Part shown: one piece after another, positions 28,653 to 42,129 of the stretch | Layout: the number at the start of each line of letters is the position of its first letter | Numbering within the stretch: position 1 is the first letter of the stretch | Origin: Geomonas sp. RF6 | GTDB lineage: Bacteria > Desulfobacterota > Desulfuromonadia > Geobacterales > Geobacteraceae | DNA: 64,000 bases | Assembly: GCF_021044625.1 (NCBI RefSeq) | Contig: NZ_CP087999.1 | Coordinates: 2,997,001-3,061,000 of the forward strand | Direction: 5' to 3' | Position numbers and translations under genes: made by a program | The notes under the pieces: model-generated | Database searches by the model: none | What the model was told of the DNA's origin: nothing | The model's input: the letters and a program-made list of their open reading frames with translations, nothing else

Positions 28653-29312
28653 CTACGCCGCTCCGAAGAGGAGCTTTTTGAGCTGCGGGTCGAGAGAGCG
28701 GTACAGGGAGCCTATGAACTCCTGCTGCACCTGGTAGTCCGGGTCCGGCGTCTTAGCGGTGGCGAAGGAGGAAACCCTCACCAGCACCCCGTCCGCCTGG
28801 GCACCGATAACGCTGTAGTAGAGGTGCTTTGCCCTCTTTTCCAGCTCGCTCCCCACCTGCTTCCCGTCCAGCATGATCCAGTACTGGACCGGCTGGGTGT
28901 CGACCGGGTCTGCGCTCACCACCAGCTGCTTCAGCTTCAGCTCCGGGGAGTGCATCGTCGTCTTCGACTGCGACATGACCTGGTAACCGGACGCCTTGTA
29001 GCAGGTCTCCGGCATGTGCAGGTTGAACTTCTTGCGCTGGTCCGCGCCGTAGGCCACCACCAGCAGCACCTTTTTTCCGTCGCTACGCTGGTACGTCCTG
29101 AAGAGGACCTCGTTCAGGAACTTCGCCTCCTTCGAGTTTGCCGAGGTGTCCTCGGTGACCATCTTCCACTCCCCGACCTGCGCCGGAAACGCCGTCAGGG
29201 TCGGCCCCCGCTTCTCCGCGTGGCGCTCTTCCTTCGGCGCCGCGGCCGCGAGCCCCGCCACCAGGAGAAGGGCGATCAGAACCAGGTGTTTTGCCTTACT
29301 TTTTACGGTCAT
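28653..29312 (-). CDS. epsI: EpsI-family exosortase-associated protein (DUF3485)
   Basis: A 219-residue exported protein: a signal peptide or membrane anchor (VLIALLLVAGLAAAA, residues 9-24) followed by an EpsI domain. The domain shows FPAQVGEWKM, a FLNEVLFRTYQ segment and the family motif HMPETCYKASGY. EpsI proteins occur next to, or fused to, exosortases in exopolysaccharide loci; their exact function is not established. It overlaps the exosortase gene by 17 bases, which indicates co-translation and close functional linkage. Confidence 0.88.
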   Translation of the reverse strand: MTVKSKAKHLVLIALLLVAGLAAAAPKEERHAEKRGPTLTAFPAQVGEWKMVTEDTSANSKEAKFLNEVLFRTYQRSDGKKVLLVVAYGADQRKKFNLHMPETCYKASGYQVMSQSKTTMHSPELKLKQLVVSADPVDTQPVQYWIMLDGKQVGSELEKRAKHLYYSVIGAQADGVLVRVSSFATAKTPDPDYQVQQEFIGSLYRSLDPQLKKLLFGAA

Positions 29313-30186
29313 GTGCCGGCCTCCACTCCATGGCGGCGTCGGTCAGCACGAGGCAGACAACGGAGACCGCAAAGAGGAGAAATCCCGAGAAGCCGTGCAG
29401 GAACCCTTCTGCCGCCGCCTCTCCGAGGTAGACGCTGATGAGGCACAGAAGAATCAGCCTCACGATGTTGGCGACGATGGAGATCGGGATCACCGAGAGG
29501 AAGAGTGCCCCCTTTTTCAGCGCGCTTCCCGCCTGCATCTGCGCGTAGAGTGCGCCCACCGCCATGAGGGCCACGAGGGAACGGAGCCCGCTGCACGGGT
29601 CCCCCACCACGATGGAGTAGTCGTTGACGATGATCACCGCGCCGTTTTTGGTCACCATGTACCCCGCCACCTTCAGGAGCGTCGCCGACGCGTTCGCCAC
29701 CAGCATCTTCAGCGGGGCGGTCAGCATGTCGGTGAAGGCGAGGGGGGGCGGGACCAGGAAGAGGAGGAAGATGACCGGGAAGAGGAGCGCCTTGCGCCCT
29801 TCCTTTCCGAAGAGAAAACCTGTCGCGCCCAGAAGGACCGGGACGATGGAAAACGCTTCTATCGCCATGGAGCCGTGCATGGAACCGACGGCGTAGCAGG
29901 CGAGCCCGACCAGGAGGGTGAAGAAGGAAAAGATGTTCATCTCATCGCTCCCCCTGAACTTCAGGGCATCGCGCCTTTGCCACAGGAGCCAGAAGAACGC
30001 GCCGAGAATGAGGGGGCCGTGGCTGTAGTCGGCGTTGTCCCACCCGAAGGAGAAGAGCTTGTAGAAGGTGGGGATAAAAAGGGCGATGATCGCCGCGTAC
30101 GTCACCCCGGTAAGAAGGGGGATTTCCCGCAGCTGCCCGATGGTGGCGAGCCCTTTCTGTACTGCTTCGGATTGTTTGAGCTGCAT
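29296..30186 (-). CDS. Exosortase
   Basis: A 296-residue polytopic membrane protein with about eight helices, predicted to process and anchor PEP-CTERM proteins. The three conserved exosortase catalytic motifs are visible in order: Cys in DPCSGLRS, Arg in ANIVRLILL and His in LHGFSGF. The early NADYSHGPLILG segment is also typical. I placed the start at ATG 30186 because the upstream in-frame codons run through a repeat. A candidate substrate with a PEP-CTERM tail is encoded at 35752 in the same locus. EpsI follows with an overlap. Confidence 0.93.
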   Translation of the reverse strand: MQLKQSEAVQKGLATIGQLREIPLLTGVTYAAIIALFIPTFYKLFSFGWDNADYSHGPLILGAFFWLLWQRRDALKFRGSDEMNIFSFFTLLVGLACYAVGSMHGSMAIEAFSIVPVLLGATGFLFGKEGRKALLFPVIFLLFLVPPPLAFTDMLTAPLKMLVANASATLLKVAGYMVTKNGAVIIVNDYSIVVGDPCSGLRSLVALMAVGALYAQMQAGSALKKGALFLSVIPISIVANIVRLILLCLISVYLGEAAAEGFLHGFSGFLLFAVSVVCLVLTDAAMEWRPAHDRKK

Positions 30187-30256
30187 TCGTACTCCTGCCG
30201 GCATTCGCCGGTGCGCGCTGCCTCTGTGGTGGACTGCCGGGAACGCCAACAAAGAG

Positions 30257-30350
30257 CAAATCCCCCCTGTCCCCCCTTCGCAAAGGGGGGAACGTTAGGC
30301 CTTCTGCAGTGCTTCGTGGCAATGTACCCACGCTCCCCCGGAATTCCCGG
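30257..30350. repeat. Half of a DUF559 module (one end repeat and outer flank)
   Basis: Starts with AAATCCCCCCTGTCCCCCC TTCGCAAAGGGGGG-type sequence and continues through the outer flank (AACGTTAGGCCTTCTGCAGT and GCTTCGTGGCAATGTACCCA), as at 39313-39395. The cargo and the other end are absent. It lies in the 214-base gap between the nucleotidyltransferase and exosortase genes. Confidence 0.65.
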
Positions 30351-39550: not shown

Positions 39551-41245
39551 CTATTCCTCTTCGTCCCCTTCGATGCCGTGCGCCGCGGCGTAGTCGGGGA
39601 CGTCGTGCCAGAAGCGCTGCTGCAACTCGTTGAGAAGGGGCTCCAGGCTCTTGCGGTCCGAGGCGGAAACGCTGATGGCGGACAGGGTGCGCGAGAGTTT
39701 CCGCACTTTCATAAACGCCAGTGGATCGCGTTTCTTCATATCCGGCAACAGGTCGACCTTGTTGAATACCAGCAGCCGCGGCTTGTTGGAGAGCTCCAGC
39801 TCGCCGAGGATCGCGTCGACCTGGTGAATCTGCTCCTCGAAACGCGGGTTCGAGCAGTCGACGAGGTGGATCAGGAGGTCGGCGTCCTTCAACTCCTCAA
39901 GAGTGGCCTTGAAAGCGCCCATGAGCGACTTCGGGAGGCTCCTGATGAAGCCGACGGTGTCGGTGATGATTACCTCGCGGTCCCTCGGGAATCGCAGGCG
40001 CCTGGACGAGGTATCGAGAGTCGCAAAGAGCAGATTTTCGGTAAAGACCTCGCTCCTGGTAAGGGTGTTGAGAAGGGTGGACTTCCCGGCGTTGGTGTAC
40101 CCCACGATGGAGATGATCGGCACCCCGGCTTTCACCCTTTTCTGCCGGCGCTGGTAACGGCCGTTGGAAAGCTCCCTCAGCTCCCGCTCCAGCGAAGCTA
40201 TGCGGTCCCTGATCCGGCGGCGGTCCGTCTCGAGTTTCGTCTCACCGGGGCCGCGCCCGCCGATACCCCCCATGAGTCGCGACATCTGCACGCCCCGCCC
40301 GCTCAGCCTCGGCAAGAGATACTTCAACTGGGCGAGCTCAACCTGCACCTTGCCGTCGACGCTGTGGGCGCGGCGGGCGAAGATGTCCAGGATCAGCTGG
40401 CTGCGGTCGATGACCTTCAGCTCCGTGATCTCCGAGATGGAACGGACCTGCGCAGGGGAGAGCTCCTGATCGAAGACGAGGAGGGATGCGCCAAACTGCA
40501 TCGCCTTTATCAGCACCTCGCGCAGCTTTCCCTCTCCCATCAGGTAGCGCGGATTGAACTCCTTCGGGCGCTGGATGACGGTATCGAGTACGCCGACGCC
40601 GGCGGTGCGGGCAAGCTCCTTCAGCTCCTCCATGGAGTCGAGAGCCTCTTCCATCGGCTTCTGGGTCACCGAAAGGAGAAGCGCGCGTTCTTCGGCTGCG
40701 GTCTCCCGGCTCTCTTCCCGTTTGAGGCTGTGCTCCAGCTCTTCGATGAATGCACGCAGGTCGAGCTTCAGGCTGTCGAACGGTACCGTAGGGTGGACTT
40801 CGTACGGCGGTGCATGCTCCTTCGGCGGAACGATGGAGGCGGTCTGCACGGAGAAGCGGTCCGGGTTCTGCGTCAGCTGCAGGGCTGCGACCAGGTCGAA
40901 GCGCAGAAGCGCCAGGTCTGTGAGGTCGTCGTCGGAGATCGCTTCACCCTTCAGGTGGGTGTGCACCATGCGCAGCCCCCGCAGGAGCTTTTTGCCGATG
41001 GGGTAGTCGGTCAGCTGCGGTATCAGCAGACCGCGCTCGTCGCCGACGATGACGTAGGCTACCTCGCCGGTGCGGTCGAGGAGCACCCCGATCTGCCGTC
41101 TGATCTCCAGCGAGAGGTCGGCGAGCTCCCGCGCGAAGTCGGGATTGATCAATTCCGCCGGAAGGGTGCGGCGGCGGAAGAGCCGCTCCAGTCTCTTTAC
41201 CTGGTTCGGTTTCAGTCCTGTCAGGTTCCCTTGTGGCTGTCTGAT
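39551..41245 (-). CDS. hflX: GTPase HflX, apparently starting at an AUC codon
   Basis: A ribosome-associated GTPase of 564 codons from ATC 41245. An N-terminal HflX domain (about residues 30-380) has a central glycine-rich SRLMGGIGGRGPGETKLE motif. The G domain has GYTNAGKST (G1), FATLDTSS (G2 region), DTVGF (G3) and FNKVDLL (G4). It splits or rescues stalled 70S ribosomes. The first standard codon in this frame is TTG 41152, with no ribosome-binding site. The coding pattern GNLTGLKPNQVKRLERLFRRR, familiar from Geobacter HflX N-termini, lies upstream of it. It begins at ATC 41245, 7 bases after GGGAGG, with an in-frame TAG at 41260. Confidence 0.85.
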   Translation of the reverse strand: MRQPQGNLTGLKPNQVKRLERLFRRRTLPAELINPDFARELADLSLEIRRQIGVLLDRTGEVAYVIVGDERGLLIPQLTDYPIGKKLLRGLRMVHTHLKGEAISDDDLTDLALLRFDLVAALQLTQNPDRFSVQTASIVPPKEHAPPYEVHPTVPFDSLKLDLRAFIEELEHSLKREESRETAAEERALLLSVTQKPMEEALDSMEELKELARTAGVGVLDTVIQRPKEFNPRYLMGEGKLREVLIKAMQFGASLLVFDQELSPAQVRSISEITELKVIDRSQLILDIFARRAHSVDGKVQVELAQLKYLLPRLSGRGVQMSRLMGGIGGRGPGETKLETDRRRIRDRIASLERELRELSNGRYQRRQKRVKAGVPIISIVGYTNAGKSTLLNTLTRSEVFTENLLFATLDTSSRRLRFPRDREVIITDTVGFIRSLPKSLMGAFKATLEELKDADLLIHLVDCSNPRFEEQIHQVDAILGELELSNKPRLLVFNKVDLLPDMKKRDPLAFMKVRKLSRTLSAISVSASDRKSLEPLLNELQQRFWHDVPDYAAAHGIEGDEEE

Positions 41246-41252
41246 AGCGTTT

Positions 41253-41258
41253 CCTCCC
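41253..41258 (-). promoter_or_regulatory. Ribosome-binding site that places the hflX start at AUC
   Basis: GGGAGG on the minus strand is spaced 7 bases from ATC (41243-41245). No ATG, GTG or TTG lies in frame between the TAG at 41258-41260 and TTG 41152. Confidence 0.6.
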
Positions 41259-41267
41259 TATAAAGCA

Positions 41268-41310
41268 GAAAAGCCGGAGCGCCGGGGCCACCTTGACCCT
41301 GGCCTCCGGC
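41268..41310 (-). terminator. Intrinsic terminator of the fabI gene
   Basis: GCCGGAG and CTCCGGC form the outer stem, with GGCC pairs inside, followed on the minus strand by TTTTC. It lies 49 bases after the fabI stop and just before hflX. Confidence 0.65.
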
Positions 41311-41358
41311 CCGTCTACTTATTCATTCTGTCGCGAATCCTCGGCTCTGTGCCCCGCG

Positions 41359-42129
41359 CTACAGTCCAATAATATTATAGCCGCTGTCCACGAAATGAAC
41401 CTCTCCGGTTACGGCCCGGGAAAGGTCGCTGGCAAGGTAGACAGCTGAACCTGCCACTTCTTCCTGGCTGATGTTGCGGCGCAGCGGAGCTTTCCCCGCC
41501 ACGATCCCGGCGATCTGGGTAAAGCCACCCACGCCGGCGGATGCGAGCGTCCTCAGCGGCCCTGCGGAGATGGCGTTCACCCTCACGCCGTCGGGACCCA
41601 TCCCCTCGGCGAGGTAGCGCACGCTTGCTTCCAGAGCTGCCTTGGCGACCCCCATGACATTGTAGTTGGGGAACACCTTCGTGGAGCCGTAATAGGTCAT
41701 GGAGATGATGCTGCCGTCTCTCCCCTGCATGAGGGGCGCTGCTTCCTTTGCCATCGCGATGAGGGAGTAGGCGCTGATCTCCAGCGCGAGGTTGAACCCT
41801 TCGCGGGTGGTGTTCAGGATCGAGCCCTTCAGCTCTTCCTTGTTGGCGAAAGCCACCGAATGCACCAGGATATCGAGTCCGCCCCACGCCTTCTGGATCT
41901 CGGCGAAGGTGGCTTTGAGGTCGTCGTCGCTTCTTACATCACACGGGAGGGTGAGGGTCACCCCAATGCTCTCCGCCAACGGCATGACCCGCTTGGCCAC
42001 GGCCTCGTTGGCGTAGGCGAGAGCGACCTCGGCCCCTTCACGACGGAACGCTTCCGCCACGGCCCAGGCTATGCTCTTGTCATTGGCAACCCCGAAAATG
42101 AGTGCCTTTTTCCCTTCCAATAAACCCAT
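41359..42129 (-). CDS. fabI: Enoyl-[acyl-carrier-protein] reductase FabI
   Basis: A 256-residue short-chain dehydrogenase that performs the last, NADH-dependent reduction of each fatty-acid elongation cycle in the cytoplasm. The cofactor region is GVANDKSIAWAVAEAF. The catalytic FabI pattern Tyr-(6)-Lys is visible in YNVMGVAK, with the preceding SMTYYGS. The GPLRTLAS substrate loop and the C-terminal YLASDLSRAVTGEV strand are typical. It is the triclosan-sensitive type by family. A good sigma-70 promoter lies upstream (42197-42225) and an intrinsic terminator follows. Confidence 0.96.
   Translation of the reverse strand: MGLLEGKKALIFGVANDKSIAWAVAEAFRREGAEVALAYANEAVAKRVMPLAESIGVTLTLPCDVRSDDDLKATFAEIQKAWGGLDILVHSVAFANKEELKGSILNTTREGFNLALEISAYSLIAMAKEAAPLMQGRDGSIISMTYYGSTKVFPNYNVMGVAKAALEASVRYLAEGMGPDGVRVNAISAGPLRTLASAGVGGFTQIAGIVAGKAPLRRNISQEEVAGSAVYLASDLSRAVTGEVHFVDSGYNIIGL

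Follow-up and report, generated by a model that had tools for sequence, protein, structure and literature searches.

Evidence for an AUH start codon of hflX in Geobacterales and beyond, with possible tuning by IF3

The window considered here, by which we mean the whole stretch of 64,000 nucleotides that was analysed, comes from Geomonas sp. RF6 (contig NZ_CP087999.1), whose 5.26-Mb genome is a single contig and whose relatives are Geobacter, Geomonas, Geotalea and allies. It carries hflX downstream of fabI (Table 1). From an ATC triplet at 41245-41243 to the first standard in-frame start, the TTG at 41152, the hflX frame runs for 31 codons without any ATG, GTG or TTG (minus-strand letters around 41150-41260: ...TTTATAGGGAGGAAACGCTATCAGACAGCCACAAGGGAACCTG...), and the predicted duplex with the anti-Shine-Dalgarno sequence ACCUCCUUA is worth -11.9 kcal/mol before the ATC vs -1.7 kcal/mol before the TTG. 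A preliminary description of the locus had placed the TAG, the GGGAGG, the 7-base gap, the ATC, the 31 codons and the TTG at coordinates that are all correct on the minus strand; its remark that the TTG has no Shine-Dalgarno (SD) sequence is borne out by the latter energy. A simple filter retained 47 long open reading frames of the window, and among these hflX alone combines a strong SD, an AUH codon and the absence of a standard codon over the next 31 codons. Elsewhere in the window, in the minus-strand reading frame at 29299-30294, an ATT preceded by a strong SD stands three codons ahead of the first standard codon; that codon likewise has a strong SD, and the ATT is probably ordinary.

Table 1. 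Features of the hflX locus, in window coordinates
Feature	Position	Strand	Basis or remark
hflX coding sequence, ATC through stop, 564 aa	39551..41245	-	TIGR03156 match
HflX N-terminal extension domain, residues 1-170, predicted MPN/JAMM-like fold	40736..41245	-	AlphaFold2 and structural matches
TTG, first standard in-frame start	41150..41152	-	Rejected as main start
hflX start codon ATC (AUH type: AUC, AUA or AUU)	41243..41245	-	AUH at the homologous codon in all Geobacterales read and most of the phylum
Shine-Dalgarno sequence GGGAGG, 7 nt 5' of the ATC	41253..41258	-	Anti-SD duplex -11.9 kcal/mol; position conserved in relatives
In-frame TAG	41258..41260	-	Rules out an in-frame start further upstream
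Strong hairpin, T-rich on its 3' side, located between fabI and the SD of hflX and resembling a terminator or attenuator	41263..41320	-	Fold z-score -3.0
fabI, upstream gene, same strand	41359..42129	-

For the hairpin that precedes the hflX SD, a role as an attenuator from which transcription continues into hflX is possible. It was not picked out by a terminator pattern scan; consensus scans for promoters and terminators in the hflX upstream region found nothing, and an Rfam search of the region returned one match at chance level. In sister orders of the class (L121-L134), the hflX start closely follows a near-perfect GGGCCC...GGGCCCTTTTTT terminator, with no space for a promoter between the two.

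The identity of the product is clear from an HMM search, in which residues 191-548 match TIGR03156 (GTP_HflX) at 443 bits against a curated cut-off of 216.75, and from the Pfam domains GTP-bdg_N, GTP-bdg_M and MMR_HSR1. The roughly 190 residues ahead of these form an N-terminal extension covered by no Pfam family. AlphaFold2 predicts a domain here with a mean pLDDT of 91, and residues 1-30, with block means of 90-97, fall inside it. Most of the structural matches listed for the extension are MPN/JAMM-type proteins (best Z 8.1 over 108 residues); the Foldseek E value is only 0.015. Within the extension H95, H97 and D107 are invariant, E47 is nearly so and S104 is common, which gives the motif E47...H95-T-H97-x6-S104-x2-D107; compared with the classical JAMM arrangement E...HxHx(7)SxxD, the spacing is one residue shorter, HxHx(6)SxxD. 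Nearer the N terminus, 22 diverse sequences all agree at G6, G10, L11, Q15 and R25.

Of 58 genomes searched across the family and order, our own included, 57 yielded HflX, three of these in pieces; the remaining genome (G021) gave no HflX, only distant GTPase matches. At the homologous position, the start codon is ATC, ATA or ATT in 57/57 order genomes, and ATG, GTG or TTG in none. Several relatives (e.g., L008, L010 and L012) have the fabI stop just 12 nt 5' of the hflX start, and this leaves no room for another start. Within the order, the third base of the codon has undergone at least 13 changes among A, C and T and none to G, as counted on trees built without the start codon; this is a modest excess, with a probability of about 0.005 under equal rates.

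Beyond the order, 267 distinct loci were assembled from class and phylum searches plus 80 named loci from GTDB genomes. An AUH codon sits at the exact position in 178 of them (70 ATC, 61 ATT, 47 ATA) and one or two codons away in a further 10; 28 have a standard codon at the exact position (18 ATG, 7 TTG, 3 GTG), 47 have one up to three codons away, and the remaining 4 are unclear. Counted by assigned family codes, 46 of 77 families of the phylum include an AUH hflX. The pattern extends to 16 of the 18 loci titled Nitrospirota, Nitrospirae or Nitrospira, where coverage consists of named loci only. Titles such as "Deltaproteobacteria bacterium" match no modern phylum, and the NCBI ranks of these loci were disregarded. 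The sister orders of Geobacterales within the class as a rule have a standard hflX start, which for the most part lies two codons downstream; the four Desulfobacteria loci have a standard start as well. AUH is thus not indispensable for HflX, since several lineages use a standard start though infC stays AUH in most of those sampled. On an unrooted tree, AUH at the hflX start is likely to be the older state, with several losses. In three loci of one family (L167, L180 and L182, family f36), the neighbourhood of the homologous start contains no standard codon and no AUH; there the codons that follow the SD are AAC-CCA-ACG or AAA-CCA-ACG, and an ACG start is possible.

How securely can the AUH codon be taken as the site of initiation? 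In 145 of the 178 AUH loci an in-frame stop lies upstream, with no ATG, GTG or TTG between it and the AUH, and in 10 the stop directly precedes the AUH (e.g., AAGGAGGAATAA-ATT in L306). Where an SD core is recognisable, its A falls 7-10 nt 5' of the AUH in 139 of 162 loci. Divergence among close relatives by codon position is 0.20/0.11/0.45 in codons 1-31, vs 0.20/0.09/0.45 in codons 45-75, and is flat upstream of the SD (0.67/0.64/0.64). Together the stops, the SD spacing and the coding-type divergence of codons 1-31 place the beginning of translation at or next to the AUH. We therefore regard it as close to certain, as far as sequence comparison can carry the point, that translation of hflX begins at an AUH codon. 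The AUC start put forward in the preliminary description is in this way backed by the order-wide AUH, its spread through the phylum, the SD spacing, the divergence and the upstream stops.

Three other readings of the 5' end were weighed and rejected, on the AUH codons of relatives, the SD, the divergence and the stops. Translation from TTG 41152, with codons 1-31 left untranslated, has in its favour that this is the first standard codon in frame; it is nevertheless highly improbable, given the feeble anti-SD pairing noted above, the lack of conservation of the TTG among relatives, and codons 1-31 that diverge like coding DNA. Such a start would also drop the invariant G6, G10, L11, Q15 and R25 and, because residues 1-30 are confidently predicted within the N-terminal domain, would be expected to cut into a folded unit. 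We give equally little credence to the reading in which the isoleucine is internal and ribosomes arrive from an upstream frame, whether through a frameshift or by reading past the fabI stop or another one. In its favour, fabI is close by on the upstream side, and some relatives have the fabI stop in frame, 12 nt 5' of the ATC. Against it, the frame of hflX relative to fabI varies among relatives, the upstream stops are neither fixed in position nor of one kind, conservation is lacking in the upstream frame, and nearly all loci keep an SD at start-codon distance. A sequencing error hiding a true ATG has nothing to recommend it beyond ATG being the usual start, and its probability is negligible; inspection of the base in close relatives, which the preliminary description had proposed, excludes it through the AUH found in 57/57 order genomes.

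That the AUH codon has been held in place by selection is a further question. All four ATN start triplets should yield methionine, and ATG is one step from every AUH codon. In a wider set of 110 loci, trees built in the same way require at least 25 changes among AUH codons vs at least 4 from AUH to standard codons or back, a pattern with a probability of about 0.016 under equal rates and again a modest excess. Mean SD energy is -8.6 kcal/mol over the 178 AUH loci vs -3.5 kcal/mol where a standard codon occupies the position, a contrast in which related species are not independent; independent switches provide 3 supported pairs; nearly all comparisons point the expected way and none the other, which is not significant. 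These patterns argue that the combination of AUH and strong SD has probably been kept as a design, and not merely as a route to low output. The near-cognate start would then be an old, selectively maintained trait of the long form of hflX in Desulfobacterota-type bacteria and Nitrospirota. The AUH starts of hflX favour C at -1 and -2, with few G at -2.

A possible reason for such maintenance is offered by infC, the gene for IF3. In our genome, infC starts as GGAGGTGGCGTC-ATA-GCT-AAA, and ATA is its start in 29/29 readable order members, our own genome included; in the wider phylum sample it is AUH in most genomes, including some with a standard hflX start (L242-L271, L352-L381). The base before the infC AUA is C in every readable order member. 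Autoregulation of infC is known to run through its ATT start, and IF3 also represses the GTC start of Streptomyces sigR, with SigR falling when IF3 is overproduced and rising in IF3 fidelity mutants (PMC5472188). The two products meet at the ribosome, where HflX splits 70S particles and IF3 stops free 30S subunits from re-joining 50S (PMC9067457).

From these precedents the following mechanism can be envisioned. The AUC at 41245 would be read by initiator fMet-tRNA, with help from the strong SD. IF3 destabilises 30S complexes on AUH codons, presumably that of hflX included, so that a shortage of free IF3 relative to 30S should raise HflX output and a surplus should lower it. With infC likewise beginning at an AUH codon (AUA), production of the ribosome-splitting factor would keep pace with that of the anti-association factor, possibly closing a physiological loop. 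A link of this kind, which the preliminary description had called conceivable, fits the observations because AUA is the infC start of these genomes and IF3 represses such starts; the shared AUH codons suggest that both infC and hflX are tuned by IF3, and by analogy with infC and sigR, control of hflX by IF3 is probable. Taken whole, an account in which HflX is initiated at AUC, the AUH start is old and maintained, and output is tuned by IF3 alongside infC appears to us likely.

The main competitor to this account accepts the AUH start and disputes its regulatory meaning: the codon would simply set a low, constant level of HflX, and the IF3 feedback would have no physiological role, as has been proposed for pcnB of E. 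coli. It gains from HflX being a stress factor that is dispensable in normal growth of E. coli (PMC9067457), from the UUG (TTG) start of hflX in E. coli itself, and from the weak SDs of lineages with standard starts, in which low output could be the conserved property. An AUG with a weak SD would give low output equally well, yet a strong SD and AUH have been kept; AUG has been avoided through many changes of the third base; and infC shows the same pairing of a strong SD with a non-standard start, as does sigR with its GTC. We consider a constant low level unlikely, at perhaps a third of the weight we give to tuning by IF3, though it is a far more serious contender than any alternative placement of the start.

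To our knowledge, only a handful of genes that start at AUH or another non-standard codon have been studied so far, and these allow the hflX case to be set in context. Like infC, whose start is AUU, AUA or AUC, hflX appears to pair an AUH start, without a usable standard start, with a strong SD and to conserve this class of codon over large distances; its product likewise acts in ribosome subunit traffic, and the infC AUA occurs in the same genomes. Unlike infC, hflX encodes a ribosome-splitting GTPase, and any control by IF3 would not be self-control. The pcnB gene of E. coli starts at AUU (Binns and Masters 2002, as cited in PMC1780047) and so shares a near-cognate start, which in the cited account limits expression of the chromosomal gene; unlike pcnB, which encodes no ribosome factor, hflX has an AUH start that extends across a phylum and beyond. 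A further parallel is sigR, with a conserved non-standard start, a strong SD (AGGAGGTG) and misannotation by standard tools, although its codon is GTC or GTT, it is confined to one genus, it encodes a sigma factor and its repression by IF3 has been demonstrated experimentally (PMC5472188). The proposed case of lepA also concerns a ribosome-associated GTPase, whose full length requires AUU, but in two scattered species and on a proposal from sequence only. A literature search found no paper on a near-cognate or AUH start of HflX, most subscription journals lying outside its coverage. The kind of feature is thus known from infC, pcnB, sigR and, as a proposal, lepA, and hflX would seem to be a new and taxonomically very broad case of it.

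Common gene finders take ATG, GTG and TTG only, so automatic annotation of these genomes probably truncates HflX or puts it in the wrong place. More tentatively, at somewhat less than even chances, conserved AUH starts may define a small and ancient IF3 regulon, with infC and hflX as its core and the IF3:30S ratio as its co-regulating signal, spanning at least one phylum and part of a second and missed by gene finders. With a splitting factor that carries AUH in 46 families, control by IF3 fidelity may reach beyond the gene for IF3 itself, and the AUH codon in hflX makes a link between IF3 and HflX directly testable.
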